Shown here: in pieces, positions 51,531-61,320 of the stretch
How positions within the stretch are numbered: the first letter of the stretch is position 1
How the letters are laid out: each line of letters starts with the position of its first letter
Program-made: the position numbers and the translations under genes
From: Bacilli bacterium
Lineage (GTDB): Bacteria; Bacillota_I; Bacilli_A; RF39; UBA660
NCBI GenBank assembly: GCA_017428495.1
Contig: JAFRQS010000010.1
Coordinates: forward strand, 1-64,000
Length of the DNA: 64,000 bases
Direction of reading: 5' to 3'
The notes under the pieces: model-generated
What the model saw: only the letters and a program-made list of their open reading frames with translations
What the model was told of the DNA's origin: nothing
Databases searched by the model: none

Positions 51531-52097
51531 CTATTTCTTTTTCTTGTTTTTCATTTTTTCTCTATGCTTATTATCTAACCTACTTAATACTATGGAGTCA
51601 TATCTTTCGGCATCTTCACCCTTTACAAGTTCAATTAGTCTTTCATCTAATGATGGAGCATAGTTTTTATGAGTAGATCCAAACATCTTATACATAAAAG
51701 ACTGATATTTATCAAATAAATCACTATTTATTAATTCTTCATAAAATCGTATTATCTCATCACTACTTCTAAAAACTAATTTGCTATCTATACGTAATAG
51801 GCACATTAAACTTGACTGAACACCATAAAATTTAGCAATTCCATCTTCTGCTTTTTTAGGAGGCACAAACATTTCATATCTATAATGATTAAATGGATGT
51901 CCAGAAACAAGTTCATAAAGTCCATGACTAGTACTACTATATTTTTTATTATATACCATTACTATTTTTTGAAATTTTTCTGGTATTTCATATTTATCTG
52001 CTAATGCTTTTAAATCAGCTTCCTCTTTCATTGGATTTAACATATGTATATCACTTAAGTCTACATAAAAATAATTTTTATTATATTTATTTGCCAT
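51531..52097 (-). CDS. Unknown 188-residue cytoplasmic protein
   Basis: Not recognised. No signal peptide or membrane segment. Notable strings: NKNYFYVDLSDIHMLNPM at the N terminus, VSGHPFNHYRYEMFVPPKK in the middle, SSDEIIRFYEELINSDLFDKY, and a very basic end (KHREKMKNKKKK). The middle is rich in aromatic residues. It starts 26 bases after the last pentapeptide-like gene with GGAGGT, and mtaB follows by 11 bases, so it is co-transcribed with both. Confidence 0.6.
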   Translation of the reverse strand: MANKYNKNYFYVDLSDIHMLNPMKEEADLKALADKYEIPEKFQKIVMVYNKKYSSTSHGLYELVSGHPFNHYRYEMFVPPKKAEDGIAKFYGVQSSLMCLLRIDSKLVFRSSDEIIRFYEELINSDLFDKYQSFMYKMFGSTHKNYAPSLDERLIELVKGEDAERYDSIVLSRLDNKHREKMKNKKKK

Positions 52098-52123
52098 AAT
52101 ACCTCCTATTTAATTATAACATA

Positions 52124-53662
52124 TTATTTAATTTTTTCTTTTGGATCTACTTCACATTCAGAAAAATCTGCACCTTCTATATTTACTCCTGTAAAATCAT
52201 CAAAGAATTTAATATTAGATGTATCAAATATACTATTACTTAAATCTTTTTTATAAACAGTTTGTGGATTTATTCTTGCTCCACTTCCTCTAAAGTCTAA
52301 ACCACTTACTTTTACATTGCTAAAATCTATCATAGATAAATTTAAGAATCTTAAATAATTAACAAAGTTTCTATTTATTTCATAATGGTCATCAATTTGT
52401 ACAAATAATTCTTCTCTACCTATTGGTATAGAACAATATAAATTTTTTGGATCTACTCCTAACCTTTCTGTAGTTTCTACTAATCTTAGTAATTCACTAA
52501 TCTTTTCTTGTACTTTTCTTTTATTTTCTTCTATCAATCTTTTTCTTGCTTCTTCTAAATTTTTCTTTGTTACTAATTTATTTTCACTTCTTATACCTAG
52601 AAATTTATTTATCTTATCTTCTAATGGTTTACATGGTTTGCCATCTTCTGATACTATCATTTCTTTGCCATCATATCCAATTACTTCTTCCACATCAGTA
52701 AAATCAACTGATGGAATATATAAAGAATATTGACTTCTTAAATCTATTACAGCTCCCTTGCTTCCTTTAAAACTTGTATTAACTAGTTTACATTTATCAA
52801 GTGGATTTGTAAAATGAACACCATTAAAGTTTGTACCAGCAAAATCTCTATCTTTTAAATCATTTGGATTAAGTATAACATAATCTAACGTTCTATTTAA
52901 TACCTTACTTTTTGCACCTTCAAAATTTGCAAATGTAACACATGCATCAATTTTATCCACTAATGTTGCACCATTCAATATGCAACCAAATAGCCCACCA
53001 TCAAGATATTGTGTATATATCTCTGCACCAGTACTTCCTGTAAAATCTGCTTTAGTTATATCATAAATTGTATAACTAATATAACAATTTTCCCCATCAA
53101 GTCCTAAATTTAAGAATCTACGCTTTATTGGAGATGTAAATGTAACACCACTAAATTTGCAACTACGCATATATATTGTTTTACCATTTTCTTTTGATCC
53201 TACGCCATATAATTTTGATGGATTTATAACTGCATTTTTGCTTCCTGTAAAATCACTATGATCAATCTCAGCTCCATCAAAAGACCCAGTAAAATTAACT
53301 CCTTTAAAAATAGCATGCGTTAATGATTTATTATATACAGTTTGTGGATTTAAATTTACTCCATATAAAGGGCTGAAATCATAATTATCTACTAAAAAGC
53401 CTGCAAAATCTATATTAGAAAAATCTATTTTCTTTAAAATATTTAATGGAAGAGCAAATGTTTTAGGTTTTTGTCTATTCCCATATTCATCTACAATTGG
53501 TTTGCAATCAGTATTAGTTTCTGAATATGGATACATAGCGCACCAAAATATAATTAATTCTAGTATTTCTGGATCATAATCTAATTTAACATGTACACCA
53601 TCTTCTATACTACTTAATTTTTTTATAAAATCATCTCTTAACTCTTTTATTTTTTCTTCCAT
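52124..53662 (-). CDS. Pentapeptide-repeat-like paralogue 5 (array 3' end)
   Basis: 512 residues, soluble, no signal. Three parts: an N-terminal head (EEKIKELRDDFIKKLSS to FALPLNILKKIDF), a middle of degenerate repeats of the type DFTGSxxAxI/CKFSGVTFTS, and the shared C-terminal block (KRKVQEKISELLRLVETTERLG and LDFRGSGARINPQTVYKKDL). The repeats should build a pentapeptide beta-helix. It carries a distinct insert with NCYISYTIYDITKADFTGSTG. AAGGTGG precedes the ATG. It ends the five-gene array. Confidence 0.75.
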   Translation of the reverse strand: MEEKIKELRDDFIKKLSSIEDGVHVKLDYDPEILELIIFWCAMYPYSETNTDCKPIVDEYGNRQKPKTFALPLNILKKIDFSNIDFAGFLVDNYDFSPLYGVNLNPQTVYNKSLTHAIFKGVNFTGSFDGAEIDHSDFTGSKNAVINPSKLYGVGSKENGKTIYMRSCKFSGVTFTSPIKRRFLNLGLDGENCYISYTIYDITKADFTGSTGAEIYTQYLDGGLFGCILNGATLVDKIDACVTFANFEGAKSKVLNRTLDYVILNPNDLKDRDFAGTNFNGVHFTNPLDKCKLVNTSFKGSKGAVIDLRSQYSLYIPSVDFTDVEEVIGYDGKEMIVSEDGKPCKPLEDKINKFLGIRSENKLVTKKNLEEARKRLIEENKRKVQEKISELLRLVETTERLGVDPKNLYCSIPIGREELFVQIDDHYEINRNFVNYLRFLNLSMIDFSNVKVSGLDFRGSGARINPQTVYKKDLSNSIFDTSNIKFFDDFTGVNIEGADFSECEVDPKEKIK

Positions 53663-53671
53663 ATAACCACC

Positions 53672-55678
53672 TTATTTAATTTTTTCTTTTGGATCTACTT
53701 CACATTCAGTAAAGTCTGCACCTTCTATATTTACTCCTGTAAAATCATCAAAGAATTTAATATTAGATGCATCAAATATACTATTACTTAAATCTTTTTT
53801 ATAAACAGTTTGTGGATTTATTCTTGCAGCACTTCCTCTAAAGTCTATTCCACTTACTTTTACATTATCAAAATCTATCATTGATAAATTTAAGAATCTT
53901 AGATATTCAACAAAGTTTCTATTTATTTCATAATGGTCATCTATTTGTACAAGTAATTCTTCTTTTCCTATCGGAATAGAACAATATAAATTCTTTGGAT
54001 CTACTCCTAACTTTTCAGTACTTTCTACTAATCTTAGTAATTCACTAATCTTTTCTTGTACTTTTCTCCTATTTATTTCTATCAATTTAGCTCTAGCGCT
54101 TTCTAATTCTTGTTTACCAATCAATACATTTTGATGCTCTAATCCAAGGATTTCATCAATCATGCTATCTAATTTGTTTGTAGGCCTTCCATCTTCTGAT
54201 ATGACCATATATTCCCCATCTAAACCTATTACTTTTGCATCAGTAAAGTTTGTACCTTCATAAAAACTAGGTTCTAAATCTTTTAAATTTATAATAGCAT
54301 TCTTACTTCCTGTAAAGTCTGAATTATGTATATCTTTTTTAATTGGTCTAGTAAAATACACTCCTTCAAATTTACAATCACTCATACCTTCTTTTACTTT
54401 GTCAGGATTAATTAATATCATTTTTTCATATTCATCATAACCATATAATCTATTAGTAAAAGTATCTGGTAATAACACTTTTGCTCCTCTAAAATCTACT
54501 CCTTCTATATCAAATCCATAATATTTAAATATATCTCCTTCTATAGTAGCATCCTTTAATACACATCTTTTTAGCCCAGTACCAGCATATATTGAGTCTG
54601 CATGTATTATTGCACCTACACTTCCTGTAAAATCTGAATCTTTTATATCAAATGCTCTATATATAATACTTTCCTTAATATCATCTATATACATTCCTGT
54701 AACTTCACTAAGCTTTTCTGTTCTACTTAATTTAGTACTTCTAAATTCATCTGTAAATGTAACTCCATTAAACTTACATCCATATAGTCCTATAGGTATT
54801 TGACGTATAACTTTCCTTCCTACCCTTTTTAAATGTTTTGCGTAAGTATTAATATAGCAAAGTTCATTTGGATTAATTTGCGCACCCACGCTTCCTGTAA
54901 AGTCTGTAGATTGAATTCTTACGTCTTTAAATGGTCCAATAAACTCTACTCCATTTAATTTAGATGCAAATAAATCTTTTTTATAAATTGTTTGTGGATT
55001 TATCTTTACTCCATATAATTCTGTAAAATCATATTCACTAGCTTTGAAATCTTTAAAATCTACATTAGAAAAATCTATTTTCTTTAAGTACTTTTTAGGT
55101 AACGCAAATTCTTTATAGGTGCCCTTATCTTCATATTTAAAAAGTATATAATCAATTAACATTGGATTATATTGAAGAGTTATATGCATACCATCTTCTA
55201 ACCTACTAAGTTCATCCATCAATTTTTTTCTCATTAATATTAATTTTAATTTACTTTCTTCAATTGTAGCATTACTTATATCAACATTTGCAAGGTCTAC
55301 TTCACTAAAATCACCAAAAAGGTCTACTCCACTTAAATTTGAATTAGATAAATCTTTATTATAAACTTTTTCAACATCAATATTTACATTATGTAATTTA
55401 CTAAAATCATATCCACTAGCTTTAAAACCTTCAAAATCAATATCAGTAAAATCAATTTTTTCTAATATATCAATTGGTAATGCAAACTCTTTATAACCAT
55501 CAGGATGATTAAATAATACTTCTTCTGTAAATTTAGCACAAGCACTACTTGTTTTATAATCTTGTATATTAAATTTTTTAGATAAAAAATTCCCTAAATC
55601 AATTAATTCCCCATTATGAGAAGAACAATAAGTTCTAATATCATTCACAATCCAGTTTCTTTTTTCTTCTATACTCAT
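53672..55678 (-). CDS. Pentapeptide-repeat-like paralogue 4, with duplicated head module
   Basis: 668 residues. The head module occurs twice: residues 1-145 (ALPIDILEKIDFTDIDFEGFKASGYDF) and again from about 147 (RKKLMDELSRLEDGMHITLQYN, then ALPKKYLKKIDFSNVDFKDFKASEYDF). The middle has repeats such as DFTGSVGAQINPNEL and DFTGSVGAIIHADSI. The C-terminal block is nearly identical to the other paralogues. Soluble, no catalytic motif. AAAGGAAAGG precedes the ATG. Confidence 0.75.
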   Translation of the reverse strand: MSIEEKRNWIVNDIRTYCSSHNGELIDLGNFLSKKFNIQDYKTSSACAKFTEEVLFNHPDGYKEFALPIDILEKIDFTDIDFEGFKASGYDFSKLHNVNIDVEKVYNKDLSNSNLSGVDLFGDFSEVDLANVDISNATIEESKLKLILMRKKLMDELSRLEDGMHITLQYNPMLIDYILFKYEDKGTYKEFALPKKYLKKIDFSNVDFKDFKASEYDFTELYGVKINPQTIYKKDLFASKLNGVEFIGPFKDVRIQSTDFTGSVGAQINPNELCYINTYAKHLKRVGRKVIRQIPIGLYGCKFNGVTFTDEFRSTKLSRTEKLSEVTGMYIDDIKESIIYRAFDIKDSDFTGSVGAIIHADSIYAGTGLKRCVLKDATIEGDIFKYYGFDIEGVDFRGAKVLLPDTFTNRLYGYDEYEKMILINPDKVKEGMSDCKFEGVYFTRPIKKDIHNSDFTGSKNAIINLKDLEPSFYEGTNFTDAKVIGLDGEYMVISEDGRPTNKLDSMIDEILGLEHQNVLIGKQELESARAKLIEINRRKVQEKISELLRLVESTEKLGVDPKNLYCSIPIGKEELLVQIDDHYEINRNFVEYLRFLNLSMIDFDNVKVSGIDFRGSAARINPQTVYKKDLSNSIFDASNIKFFDDFTGVNIEGADFTECEVDPKEKIK

Positions 55679-55679
55679 A

Positions 55680-57191
55680 TTAGTATTCCTTTCCTTTTAC
55701 CTTTGGATCTACTTCACATTCAGAAAAATCTGCACCTTCAATATTTACTCCTGTAAAATCATCAAAGAATTTAATATTAGATGTATCAAATATACTATTA
55801 CTTAAATCTTTTTTATAAACAGTTTGTGGATTTATTCTTGCAGCACTTCCTCTAAAATCTAATCCACTTACTTTTACATTATCAAAATCTATCATCGATA
55901 AATTTAAGAATCTTAGATAATTAATAAAATTTCTATTTATTTCATAATGATCATCAATTGTTACAAATAATTCTTCTCTACCAATTGGAATAGAGCAATA
56001 TAAATTTTTTGGATCTACTCCTAACCTTTCTGTAGTTTCTACTAATCTTAATAATTCACTAATCTTTTCTTGTACTTTTCTTTTATTTTCTTCTAAAAGT
56101 TTCTTTCTGGTAGCCTCTAGTTCTTTTTTAGTAAACATTTCAGTTTCATGCTCTATTCCTAATAGTTTATCAACCATGCTTTCTAAATCTGTTCCTAATT
56201 TACCATCACTACTTATAGCCATTACTTCATTATCATATCCAATTACTGTAGTATCAGTAAAGTTAACATCATCATAATTATGTTCTTTATCTATTCTATT
56301 TAAATCTATTGTAGCATTAACGCTTCCTGTAAAATCTGATCCTGCTATTATTGCTCCATCAAATGATCCTGTAAATTTAACTCCATTAAATTTACAACTT
56401 TTCATACTTCTATCATACAATTTTTGAGGATTAATTGAGACTTTAGTCTCAATCCCTAAGGTATTTTGCCCTCTACTACCTGTAAAATCTGTATTTCCTA
56501 TTCTACAACTAACTTCTCCAATAATAGTTGTATCAGTAAGTGTACATCCAACCAAACTCATATCATATTTATTCATATAATCCATATATATAATAGCATT
56601 TCTACTTCCTGTAAAATCTGATCCTTTTATATTTGGTAACGCCACTTTCTTTACTATGTAACTACTATAATAACTATAATGTCTTACACGACCTATATTA
56701 AGAGATTTTATTGATGATGTAAAAGTTACTCCATTAAATTTGCAATTAGTCATATTAATTTCATTCTCATCATCTTCATCTCCGAAATATAATTTAGTTG
56801 GGTCAATATATGCTCCTGTACTTCCTGTGAAATCAGTGCATTGAATACTCACATCATCGAATGGTCCAATAAAAGTTACACCATTTAATATACTACAATT
56901 CAAATTCTTATCATATATGGTTTGTGGATTTAACTTTATACCATATAAACCAGTAAAATCAAAATTAGTAGCATAAAAATCATCAAAATTAACATTTGAA
57001 AAATCTATCTTTTCTAATGCCTCTTTTGGTAATGCAAATTGTTTATATTGTTTTTTAATTAAAATAGTTTTTTTAAATAGTACCATTTCTAAAAGTCTTG
57101 GATCATAATCTAACATTATATGACTACCATCTTCCAATTTTTTTAATTGCTCTATCAACTTTTTTCTTAATTCTTTTATTTTTTCTTCCAT
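55680..57191 (-). CDS. Pentapeptide-repeat-like paralogue 3
   Basis: 503 residues, single head. Middle repeats include TDFTGSTGAYIDPTKLY, CKFNGVTFTSSIKSLNIG, SDFTGSRNAIIYMDY and SDFTGSVNATIDL. The linker (SDGKLGTDLESMVDKLLGIEHE) and C-terminal block match the family. The final residues (KVKGKEY) differ from the usual KEKIK, so the repeated block ends slightly differently. Start by GGGTGG; two bases before the next gene. Confidence 0.75.
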   Translation of the reverse strand: MEEKIKELRKKLIEQLKKLEDGSHIMLDYDPRLLEMVLFKKTILIKKQYKQFALPKEALEKIDFSNVNFDDFYATNFDFTGLYGIKLNPQTIYDKNLNCSILNGVTFIGPFDDVSIQCTDFTGSTGAYIDPTKLYFGDEDDENEINMTNCKFNGVTFTSSIKSLNIGRVRHYSYYSSYIVKKVALPNIKGSDFTGSRNAIIYMDYMNKYDMSLVGCTLTDTTIIGEVSCRIGNTDFTGSRGQNTLGIETKVSINPQKLYDRSMKSCKFNGVKFTGSFDGAIIAGSDFTGSVNATIDLNRIDKEHNYDDVNFTDTTVIGYDNEVMAISSDGKLGTDLESMVDKLLGIEHETEMFTKKELEATRKKLLEENKRKVQEKISELLRLVETTERLGVDPKNLYCSIPIGREELFVTIDDHYEINRNFINYLRFLNLSMIDFDNVKVSGLDFRGSAARINPQTVYKKDLSNSIFDTSNIKFFDDFTGVNIEGADFSECEVDPKVKGKEY

Positions 57192-57200
57192 ATAACCACC

Positions 57201-59153
57201 CTATTTTATCTTTTCTTTTGGATCTACTTCACATTCAGTAAAGTCTGCACCTTCTATATTTACACCTGTAAAATCATCAAAGAATTTAATATTAGATGCA
57301 TCAAATATTCCATTACTTAAATCTTTCTTATAGACAGTTTGCGGATTTATTCTTGCTCCACTTCCTCTAAAGTCTAAACCACTCACTTTTACATTACTAA
57401 AATCTATCATTGATAAATTTAAAAATCTCAACAAAGATAAATCAACTAAACTTCTATTTATTTCATAATGATCATCTATTGGCACTAAAAATACATCTTT
57501 TTCTATAGGAATAGAACAATATAAATGCTTTGGATCTACTCCTAATTTTTCTGATGCTTCTACTAATTTTAGTAGTTCATTTAATTTTTCTTGAAATTTT
57601 TTTCTATTTTCTTCTATTAATCTAATTCTAGCTTCTTCTAATGCTTTTTTATCTAAGACTTCATCATCATTTATTCCTAATAATTCACTCATCATGAGTG
57701 ATATATCTGTACCTAATTTACCATCTTCTGAAACATACATTTCTTTTCCATTTGTACCTATCACTTTAGTATCACTAAAGTTAGTACTTTCATAGTCACC
57801 TTCAATAGTTCTTAAATCTATAACTGCTCCCTTACTTCCTGTAAAATCTGCTCCATTAATATTAGATTTTTCAAATGTACCTACAAATTCTACTCCACTA
57901 AATATAGAATTAGATAAATCTTTATCTAGTGCACATTGAGGATTTATTTTTATATATCTTGAAAATAATTTACCATTCTTTGCACCGGTAAAGTTTACTT
58001 GTTTTAAATTAAAATCTTCACTAAATTCGCCATATATAGTTGCACCATTTAATACGCAATTTCTAAATCCACTATATGGATCTATACCAGATAAATCGAT
58101 TTTTGCATCCTTACTTCCTGTAAAATCACAAAAATCCATTTTCAATTTATATTTACTGTCTTTTCCAAGAGTACCAATAAAGTGTACATCTGTAAATTTG
58201 CAAGAATTAATATCAATTACTTCTTCATGATTCCAATCACGCTCATGATGTAATTGCATAGGTCCAATGTATGCTCCACTACTACCTGTAAAATCACTAT
58301 GATCAATCTTAGCTCCGTGAAAAGGTCCTATAAAAGTTACTCCATTAAATTTGCAATATATTAAATCCTTATCATAGACAGTTTGTGGATTTATTTTTAC
58401 TCCATAAAATTCTCTAAAATCAAAATGTCTAGCATTAAAATTATCGAAATCTATGCCTGTATAATCAATTTTAGATGCTAATTCAAGAGGAATTGCAAAA
58501 GATTTACGCGTACCCTTATCTCTTGTTTCATAATCAAATAATAAAGCATCAATTATACGTGAATCATACTTTAATTTAACATATACTCCAGGTTCAACTT
58601 TTGATAGTTCACTTACTAATTTTTGCCTTAATAATATTTTTTTGTATTCTTCTTTATCAGCTACTATAGCTCCTGTTAAATCAGCATGTACTATATTTAC
58701 TGACGTAAATGATCCTGTTATTTCAACACCATTTAATTTAGCACCACTTAAATCTCTTAAATAAATTTCTTGAGGATTTAATTTGACATTATGTAGTCCT
58801 GTAAAATCAAAATCATTAGCTTTAAAACGTTCAAAAGAAATATTTGAAAAATCTATCTTTTCTAAAACACTTCTTGGCAATGCAAAGGTACGAAATCCTT
58901 TAATATAATCATCATAAAATAGTATTTCTTCCATGTTTACATATCCATATTTTAAATTATAAATCCCATCAGAATTAACACCATAAATACGTTCATATTC
59001 ATTTTGAAAACTACGATTATATAAAAAGAATTTTTTTAAATCGACTAATCCTGATTCTGATTCTCTTTGTATCCTATCTATGTTTGCAATTAAATACCCT
59101 CTTACATTTCTAATAACTGTATCGCTTATATGAACTTCATTTTCTTTATCCAT
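57201..59153 (-). CDS. Pentapeptide-repeat-like paralogue 2, with duplicated head module
   Basis: 650 residues. After an unusual N-terminal 80 residues (EVHISDTVIRNVRGYLIANIDRIQ), a first head (ALPRSVLEKIDFSNISFERF) is followed by a second (RQKLVSELSKVEPGVYVKLKY, then AIPLELASKIDYTGIDFDNF). The middle repeats are of the SDFTGSSGAYIGP type. The C-terminal block is the most divergent of the five at its start (RKKFQEKLNELLKLVEASEKLG; SIPIEKDVFLVPIDDHYEINR) but identical from FLNLSMIDFSNVKVSGLDFRG on. Start by AGAGGT. Confidence 0.75.
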   Translation of the reverse strand: MDKENEVHISDTVIRNVRGYLIANIDRIQRESESGLVDLKKFFLYNRSFQNEYERIYGVNSDGIYNLKYGYVNMEEILFYDDYIKGFRTFALPRSVLEKIDFSNISFERFKANDFDFTGLHNVKLNPQEIYLRDLSGAKLNGVEITGSFTSVNIVHADLTGAIVADKEEYKKILLRQKLVSELSKVEPGVYVKLKYDSRIIDALLFDYETRDKGTRKSFAIPLELASKIDYTGIDFDNFNARHFDFREFYGVKINPQTVYDKDLIYCKFNGVTFIGPFHGAKIDHSDFTGSSGAYIGPMQLHHERDWNHEEVIDINSCKFTDVHFIGTLGKDSKYKLKMDFCDFTGSKDAKIDLSGIDPYSGFRNCVLNGATIYGEFSEDFNLKQVNFTGAKNGKLFSRYIKINPQCALDKDLSNSIFSGVEFVGTFEKSNINGADFTGSKGAVIDLRTIEGDYESTNFSDTKVIGTNGKEMYVSEDGKLGTDISLMMSELLGINDDEVLDKKALEEARIRLIEENRKKFQEKLNELLKLVEASEKLGVDPKHLYCSIPIEKDVFLVPIDDHYEINRSLVDLSLLRFLNLSMIDFSNVKVSGLDFRGSGARINPQTVYKKDLSNGIFDASNIKFFDDFTGVNIEGADFTECEVDPKEKIK

Positions 59154-59156
59154 ACT

Positions 59157-60674
59157 TTACCTCTTTTCTTTTAATTTTGGATCTACTTCACATTCAGAAA
59201 AATCTGCACCTTCTATATTTACTCCTGTAAAGTCATCAAAAAACTTAATATTTAATGCATCAAATACTCCATTACTTAAATCTTTTTTATAAACAAGTTG
59301 TGGATTAATTCTTGCTCCACTATGTCTAAAATCTATACCACTTACTTTTACATTATCAAAATCTATCATCGATAAATTTAAAAATCTTAGATATTCAACA
59401 AAATTTCTATTTATTTCATAATGATCATCTATTTGTACAAGTAATTCTTCTTTTCCTATTGGAATAGAACAATATAAATTTTTTGGATCTACTCCTAACT
59501 TTTCTGTAGTTTCTACTAATCTTAATAATTCACTAATCTTTTCTTGTACTTTTCTTTTATTTTCTTCTAATAATTGTTGTTTTGCTTCTTCTAACTTTCT
59601 CTTACTTAATACTACAGATTCTTTTTCTCTACCAAGTAATTTATCAATCATACTTTCAAGGTCTTTACCAATTCTTCCATCTTCTGATATAGACATTTTA
59701 GAACCATCATACCCGATAACTCTAGCATTTGAAAAATTAACTTTTTCTTTATTTTTTAATTTCTTAATTGTTTCAAGGTTTATTACTGCTCCTATACTTC
59801 CTGTAAAATCTGATTTCTCTATTTCAGCACCATCGAATGGGCCAGTAAATTGCACCCCTTCAAAAACACAATTAGATACATCTTTGTCTGCTATTTTTTG
59901 AGGATTTATCATAATCCTAGATTTACTACCAAAATTTATACCTGTAGCTCCTTTAAAATTAGCTCCTTTAATTTCAACATCTTTTACTTCACCAACTATT
60001 AATGTATCTTTCAATATAGTATCATTTAAATCAATTGATTCTGGATATATAACTGCTCCTGTACTTCCTGTAAAATCCGACCCACTTATTTTGGGAATTG
60101 CTGTTAAATATATTCGATCACCAAGACTCACATAACTTCCCAACTTAAAAGATTTAATTTTTTTTATAAAGGAAACTCCATAAAATTTACAATCATTCAT
60201 ATTAATTCTATAACATTTATGTACATGATGATAACTTATTTCATCCCAATAATAATTATACTCTCCAATATATAATTTTCTTGGATTTATAACTGCTCCT
60301 GTACTTCCTGTAAAATCTGTATGATTCAATCTTACATTATCAAATGGTCCAATAAAAGTTACCCCATTTAATATAGAACTAGATAAGTCATTATCATGAA
60401 TAGTTTGTGGATTTAATTTGACATTATGTAAACCTTTAAAATCATATTCACTGGCTTTGAATTTATCAAATGATACATCTGAAAAATCTATATGTTTTAA
60501 TACTCTTTTTGGTAATCCAAATACCTTATATACAGATGAATCAGTTTTAATAGTATCAAATATTATTAATTCAATAACTCTAGGTTCAAAATCTAAACTT
60601 ATATGTACTCCATCTTCTAATCCATCAAGTTCATGTATAATTTTATTTCTTAACTCTTCAATTTTTTCTTCCAT
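59157..60674 (-). CDS. Pentapeptide-repeat-like paralogue 1 (array 5' end)
   Basis: 505 residues from the ATG at 60674. An ATG-open frame continues to 60716, but the -10 box at 60700-60705 lies inside it, so that start cannot be used from this promoter. Head EEKIEELRNKIIHELDGLEDGVHISL; middle DFTGSTGAVINPRKLY and SDFTGSTGAVIYPESI; linker SEDGRIGKDLESMIDKLLGRE; constant C-terminal block with DFRHSGARINPQLVYKKDL (His for the usual Gly). Pentapeptide beta-helices can mimic DNA or act as scaffolds; no role is shown here. Confidence 0.75.
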   Translation of the reverse strand: MEEKIEELRNKIIHELDGLEDGVHISLDFEPRVIELIIFDTIKTDSSVYKVFGLPKRVLKHIDFSDVSFDKFKASEYDFKGLHNVKLNPQTIHDNDLSSSILNGVTFIGPFDNVRLNHTDFTGSTGAVINPRKLYIGEYNYYWDEISYHHVHKCYRINMNDCKFYGVSFIKKIKSFKLGSYVSLGDRIYLTAIPKISGSDFTGSTGAVIYPESIDLNDTILKDTLIVGEVKDVEIKGANFKGATGINFGSKSRIMINPQKIADKDVSNCVFEGVQFTGPFDGAEIEKSDFTGSIGAVINLETIKKLKNKEKVNFSNARVIGYDGSKMSISEDGRIGKDLESMIDKLLGREKESVVLSKRKLEEAKQQLLEENKRKVQEKISELLRLVETTEKLGVDPKNLYCSIPIGKEELLVQIDDHYEINRNFVEYLRFLNLSMIDFDNVKVSGIDFRHSGARINPQLVYKKDLSNGVFDALNIKFFDDFTGVNIEGADFSECEVDPKLKEKR

Positions 60675-60699: not shown

Positions 60700-60728
60700 A
60701 TTATATCATAAATCATAAAAAAAACAAC
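60700..60728 (-). promoter_or_regulatory. Promoter of the pentapeptide-like array
   Basis: On the minus strand TTGTTT and a perfect TATAAT (60700-60705) are 16 bases apart. The -35 lies in the descending arm and T run of the terminator of the upstream gene, so the two signals share bases. Confidence 0.6.
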
Positions 60729-60742
60729 CTTATAGGTTGTTT
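60722..60742 (-). terminator. Terminator of the anchored acidic protein gene
   Basis: A perfect 8-bp stem (AAACAACC / GGTTGTTT) with a 5-base loop containing the stop codon and eight T after it on the minus strand. Confidence 0.75.
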
Positions 60743-61320
60743 CTAAACCTCTTTAAAGAATTTAAATATTCTTCATTAGCTTCTCTTTTATTTTCTTTTA
60801 CAATAGGTATTCTACCAGTTTGGTATTCTACTTCATCTATTACTAAGAAATCATCATCAATTGCTTGTTGTTCTTTTTTTGGTTCAACATATTTTACTGG
60901 TTCTTCTCTTTTTGCATATGTAACTGGTTGATTAGTTTTCAATAGCTCTTCAACACTTATTATTGCTGTATCTTCTTGCTCATCCTCATACTGTTGAATT
61001 TTATCCATAGCACTAGCATTATTTTTACTTTCAATATGTTTTAGTTCATCAACAATAGATTTTAAATTACGAGTTCTATCATTTTCCAAATTTATGTCGC
61101 TTACACTTACATTGTTTATATCTTTCATCTTTTCTTCAAATGCATTTTCTCGATCCGTTACTTCACTTTCACCATATATCTTTTTTACTTTATTCTTTTC
61201 TGGTTTAAGTACTACAATTAATAAAATTATAAATGTAATTACTAATAAAACACCCACTATAAATAGAGCGCGTCCAGCATCATTCAAATTTGTAAAATAA
61301 TTAGTAATATTTGCTATCAT
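60730..61320 (-). CDS. Membrane-anchored acidic protein, unknown
   Basis: 196 residues, not recognised. One transmembrane helix (residues 18-40, ALFIVGVLLVITFIILLIVV) is followed by a basic stop-transfer (KPEKNKVKK) and a long, charged, probably disordered or coiled-coil cytoplasmic tail with many Glu/Asp (EDEQEDTAI, QQAIDDDFLVIDEVEYQTGR). The short N-terminal part would lie outside. It starts five bases after rsmE and is probably co-transcribed with it. It could be an adaptor at the division site or envelope, but nothing specific supports this. Confidence 0.6.
   Translation of the reverse strand: MIANITNYFTNLNDAGRALFIVGVLLVITFIILLIVVLKPEKNKVKKIYGESEVTDRENAFEEKMKDINNVSVSDINLENDRTRNLKSIVDELKHIESKNNASAMDKIQQYEDEQEDTAIISVEELLKTNQPVTYAKREEPVKYVEPKKEQQAIDDDFLVIDEVEYQTGRIPIVKENKREANEEYLNSLKRFRNNL

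Follow-up and report, generated by a model that had tools for sequence, protein, structure and literature searches.

The window, a stretch of 64,000 nucleotides, belongs to a 1.24 Mb draft genome of 33 contigs (G000) and carries at positions 52124-60674 five tandem open reading frames (ORFs), all of them intact and, like the other window features located below, on the minus strand. Numbered by rising coordinate, they are g1 (52124..53662, 512 aa), g2 (53672..55678, 668 aa), g3 (55680..57191, 503 aa), g4 (57201..59153, 650 aa) and g5 (59157..60674, 505 aa), transcription running from g5 to g1 and the gene lengths alternating short-long-short-long-short along the transcript. The five proteins score 36.6, 39, 23.6, 39.6 and 29.2 bits with the Pfam Pentapeptide model PF00805, above its gathering threshold of 20.2, confirming the five-gene tandem array of pentapeptide-repeat proteins (PRPs) of the original prediction. 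The start of g5, the first gene of the operon, is best set at 60674, with an AGAGGG Shine-Dalgarno-like sequence just before it.

While g1 and g3 have a single head, g2 and g4 have a second, divergent one, in agreement with the doubled head claimed for two of the five genes: the first, outer and divergent head (55274..55519 in g2, 58662..58970 in g4) is followed by the inner head (54878..55246 and 58269..58643, respectively). Regarding the junctions, those from g4 to g3 and from g2 to g1 have in common a stretch of ~30 bp with one mismatch, covering the gap between the genes and the start codon of the following one, which is not common to the other two junctions of the array, suggesting that a two-gene unit, one long gene plus one short, was duplicated.

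Architecture of the proteins

Strict contiguous pentapeptides form runs of at most 3-5 in the window proteins, as counted by a strict regular expression (a looser definition could give more), and an NPQ loop breaks the pentapeptide series at intervals of about 42 residues. In related arrays, the 42-residue repeat units have the form DFTGSxGAxINPQxxxxKxL. Another contig of the window genome (L040:5922-8020, contig C25) also encodes two tandem PRPs of ~350 aa, which have regular repeats of 42 residues and lack the constant tail, and other genera of the family have tandem arrays of 2-6 tailless proteins made of a head plus 42-residue repeats, the repeat number differing between proteins (L108, L109, L110, L115, L120 and L157).

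The AlphaFold2 model of g3 has a pLDDT of 86.6, with more than 90 over most of the body, which is predicted as a β-solenoid of regular short strands, as expected from the β-helical middle proposed earlier. In this model, the head (56799..57191) is composed of two helices and a β-hairpin capping the solenoid, followed by a low-confidence linker and the constant tail (55683..56090), predicted as a long helix, a β-hairpin and a small pentapeptide solenoid. Besides their similarities to known PRPs (HetL, MfpA, Qnr and AlbG), namely the PF00805 match in all five, the capping helices and a β-solenoid that is predicted to be right-handed and may be a quadrilateral β-helix, there are differences, as the window repeats are interrupted, a second small solenoid serves as the constant tail and the genes form a mosaic tandem array.

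It is highly improbable that these proteins protect or modulate gyrase in the manner of Qnr, MfpA and AlbG, which are DNA mimics. The best PDB matches of the g3 model in Foldseek, which would fit such a role, are HetL, a designed pentapeptide-type solenoid and MfpA, with AlbG also among the weak best matches, and both the whole proteins (pI 5.1-5.7) and the tails (pI 4.7-4.9) are acidic. However, these matches reach an E of about 1e-4 with a TM-score of only 0.13-0.17, the curated NCBIfam Qnr/MfpA models score 13-20 bits against cut-offs of 240-460, the window proteins have two to three times the length and 42-residue repeats that are interrupted, and the tail also occurs on scaffolds other than PRPs, as described further on.

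Constant tails and diverged bodies

All five genes end in a C-terminal block of ~135 residues, located at 52127..52537 in g1, 53675..54085 in g2, 57204..57620 in g4 and 59160..59573 in g5, whose identity to the g3 block is 78-96% in protein and 79-96% in DNA. Among codons for the same amino acid, the mismatch is 0.28-0.38 in the head plus middle (saturation 0.36) versus 0.08-0.24 in the tail, and across the tail boundary the pS is 0.46-0.53 in the body versus 0.16-0.39 in the tail. A single change-point in polymorphism density falls at g3 residue ~366 (LLR 120), with 0.67 of the columns being polymorphic before it and 0.22 after it, a step well outside what chance would give. The heads share only ~60% identity and have reached synonymous saturation (pS 0.41-0.60, pN 0.26-0.38), essentially like the middles (pS 0.42-0.57, pN 0.33-0.46).

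The original prediction described constant ends and suggested repeated duplication with gene conversion of the ends. Duplication is upheld. The substitution counts along the genes are uneven with a sharp step at ~366, and homogenisation with a synonymous step is seen at the C-terminal end; the heads, however, are as diverged as the middles, so the constancy and its conversion concern one end rather than both. The sameness of the tails exceeds protein conservation, because purifying selection on the protein alone would leave the synonymous divergence unlowered. Mosaic tracts are also found in the tails, where the longest identical runs of the pairs g3-g5, g1-g4, g2-g3 and g2-g5 have permutation p values of 0.002-0.02, uncorrected, and where the first half of the g4 tail is distinctly diverged and the second half close to the other tails. 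As the genome is a draft assembly, small chimeric joins inside the tails are possible.

Homogenised tails occur as three independent cases among the seven genomes having two or more tail proteins. Besides the window, three proteins of G089 have bodies of WG repeats with a pS of 0.42-0.46 and tails of 0.07-0.14, the last ~50-codon windows being at 0.00, and in the metagenome-assembled genome (MAG) CANRJN the bodies are at 0.27-0.36 and the tails at 0.04-0.16. The other four multi-copy genomes (G215, G127, G253 and G164) lack this pattern, so homogenisation is not obligatory. In one of them, G215, six consecutive genes for proteins of 614-715 aa (L102:4806-17020) have the tail in four of the six, with WG repeats in two of the tail-bearing genes scanned.

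These patterns have to be weighed against an ordinary birth-and-death of the PRP family, where an already diverse array was acquired and one tail sequence spread recently, by duplication or conversion, just through the adjacency of the copies, with no repertoire function. This explanation, in particular birth-and-death in which a short neighbouring tract was converted incidentally, is a serious alternative, although rather unlikely as a whole. Tailless tandem PRP arrays are common in the family (G070, G130, G247 and G206), which makes tandem expansion a widespread habit there, the four multi-copy genomes above do without homogenisation, and the body dN/dS is below 1, a ratio from which positive selection on the bodies is not demonstrable because dS is saturated. 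On the other hand, three independent lineages homogenise the tail but not the adjoining body, and the tail persists on scaffolds of unrelated kinds, which speaks for a constant role under constraint.

Insertion in the mtaB leader

The array and ORF188, an orphan of 188 aa on the mtaB side (51531..52097), sit between ORF196 and mtaB. In two relatives, this site is empty, as ORF196 and mtaB are adjacent on one contig of G001, and the end of ORF196 and mtaB lie 75 bp apart on contig C83 of G002; G003 was left out of this comparison for having a different gene upstream of mtaB. The presence of the array varies between related genomes, which supports the original prediction in this respect. A terminator-like hairpin after ORF196 (60720..60744), kept in both G001 and G002, marks the upstream boundary of the unit, followed by an extended -10 element TGATATAAT upstream of g5 (60700..60705). 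As seen by the leader alignment, the hairpin and TGATATAAT are common to the window and the empty-site leader of G002, and g1-g5 come after TGATATAAT. A second -10 element, TGTTATAAT, precedes ORF188 (52113..52118) and is also found in the G002 leader about 20 bp further on, although this match is short and only suggestive. It may point to two separate insertions in the mtaB leader, one of the array and one of ORF188. ORF188 is absent from the congeners and lacks a Pfam match, and a search of 291 family genomes gave no relative of it.

Judged from these leaders, the array is a lineage-specific insertion, and its GC and GC3 are native. Between G000 and G002, 17% of the same-residue codons of mtaB differ; the tails lie mostly at or below this level of synonymous difference, and the bodies far above it. 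The divergence of the bodies would then be older than the insertion, and the array was probably diverse when it arrived. With the site empty in both congeners, its entry most likely followed the split of G000 and G002, the tails being subsequently homogenised or kept alike.

The lineage-specific insertion, the diversity of the bodies and the constant tail could also suit a defence or counter-defence repertoire, with the bodies serving as sensors of or baits for phage components and the tail putting together a common response. This is very unlikely, however, as the matches to PADLOC defence models are marginal (best E 5e-4, partial, no system), no effector domain is present and no defence neighbours were recognised. 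The five proteins have no enzyme, toxin or defence domain according to Pfam, NCBIfam and PADLOC; tblastn against phage and plasmid collections gave no match, and none was confirmed in viral contigs, leaving the array without relatives in mobile-element, phage, plasmid and defence libraries. An alignment spanning the tail (A3) matched genome contigs and none of the viral contigs, while a whole-gene alignment search of genome and viral contigs gave no match with the chosen peptides, which were too specific. Together with the NCBIfam scores far below their cut-offs, these searches agree with the earlier statement that no known system is recognised here, and no account of constant-tail arrays, of pentapeptide together with WG repeats or of pentapeptide repeats in RF39 was found in the literature searched.

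The tail as a separate domain and its possible roles

As seen by profile searches, the tail is a separate recurrent domain. A relative with 41% identity ends a 795-aa protein with LRV repeats in G002, of the same genus, and the tail model matches at E <= 0.001 in 54 of 386 genomes from the same family, which consists of small-genome gut Bacilli, some of these being cross-matches to ordinary pentapeptide coils; strong, near-full-length matches are found in about 17 of these genomes, from many genera. In a class-wide sample, two marginal matches apart, the tail essentially stays within this family. The named carriers among the matches listed are uncultured Bacilli, Erysipelotrichaceae and Tenericutes MAGs, and isolate names such as RUG and Lapin suggest the rumen and the rabbit gut. 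A 24,457-aa frame with a tail on contig C1 of G242 was rejected as a giant protein, being a run of masked N in which the real ORF has 454 aa.

Outside the window, tail proteins possess WG repeats (G178, G089, G215, G253, G127 and L131) or an N-terminus that matches no Pfam family, and tails together with pentapeptide heads were seen only in the window among the sampled cases. The predicted structure of one WG protein (L123) has a pLDDT of 69.9, the tail being mostly at 79-89, and after the WG part a long helix, a hairpin and a small solenoid are predicted in the same order as in the g3 tail. Proteins of the family with WG repeats (PF14903) or LRV repeats (PF01816) have the same C-terminal tail domain as the window proteins but differ in their N-terminal scaffold, which is unrelated to pentapeptide repeats. 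In a maximum-likelihood tree of head-like segments, the five window heads share a clade with the bodies (96/94), whereas the one window tail included groups with tails from other genomes (96/84). As heads and tail fall in separate clades, the window genes are chimeras of the local PRP family and the tail family.

A protein in another genome carries an HTH_3 domain placed after the tail (L137:5280-6827), hinting at a cytosolic, possibly regulatory, use of the tail. A cytosolic location is argued for by this fusion and by the apparent absence of signal peptides, none being obvious by eye. Folds of the WG, LRV and PRP kinds often serve as binding scaffolds, and a single C-terminal domain carried by many unrelated repeat scaffolds of this kind is what a sorting tail usually looks like, so that the tail could instead direct export or anchoring, in which case the bodies would act at the surface or as secreted proteins, be it as adhesins, decoys or effectors. 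This is quite unlikely, as neither a signal peptide nor a membrane anchor was seen by eye, the HTH domain of L137 follows the tail, and the operon context is housekeeping, with no secretion genes recognised nearby.

The preferred, although still tentative, reading is that of a small repertoire of binding proteins in the cytosol, with solenoids set on a shared docking or oligomerising tail that recombination keeps alike. It builds on the architecture, the separate recurrent tail, the homogenisation of tails, the unit duplication and the lineage-specific insertion, to which it would add the cytosolic location, a docking or oligomerising function and recognition by the body. Against it weigh the four multi-copy genomes whose tails are not homogenised, the joining of the tail to pentapeptide heads in the window alone among the sampled cases, and the surroundings of the tail genes, where no partner, enzyme domain or conserved neighbour was found. 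Each protein would consist of an N-terminal cap, a body formed by a loop-bearing pentapeptide β-solenoid, different in each gene, then a flexible linker and the common C-terminal module. The body would be the recognition surface, binding a variable partner, while the role of the tail would be the same in every protein: to oligomerise it or to dock it to a single shared component of the cell. In the C-terminal helix lies the dimer interface of MfpA, AlbG and PENT (PMC8145042), and by analogy oligomerisation through the window tail is a fair guess, as it also opens with a long helix. The recurrence of one acidic tail on unrelated scaffolds of protein-binding type suggests variable fronts set on a common dock or oligomeriser. 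The tail DNA may also be a recombination handle, where unequal exchange and gene conversion would duplicate units and keep the tails alike, the bodies thereby becoming interchangeable fronts on one dock.

Tandem families with one constant and one variable end include the clustered protocadherins and the bacterial variable-lipoprotein and silent-cassette arrays. The window is similar in having tandem paralogues with one homogenised and one divergent end, but no splicing, phase switching, inverted repeats or recombinase were seen there, the proteins look cytosolic and all five ORFs are intact. The broader version of the preferred reading, in which the tail, largely confined to one family, is a universal dock for PRP, WG and LRV scaffolds, with recombination keeping the docks identical while it swaps and diversifies the recognition fronts, is unlikely; if true, a dock domain with interchangeable fronts would constitute a bacterial intracellular repertoire system.

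PRPs are abundant and their function is mostly undescribed. The results point to an undescribed tail domain of unassigned function, common to PRP, WG and LRV proteins of one gut family. With a variable solenoid set apart from a constant domain in several genomes and on three scaffold types, they provide a natural experiment, and the constant domain offers one bait for a shared partner of uncharacterised repeat proteins in uncultured gut bacteria. Regarding the surroundings of the tail genes, no conserved neighbour was found around 29 loci, neighbours recurring only in related loci. At L126, L127 and L133, the tail genes lie at an orthologous site between glycosyltransferase-like and TsaD-like genes, where the copy number varies, two of the genomes having a single tail protein there and the third a pair.
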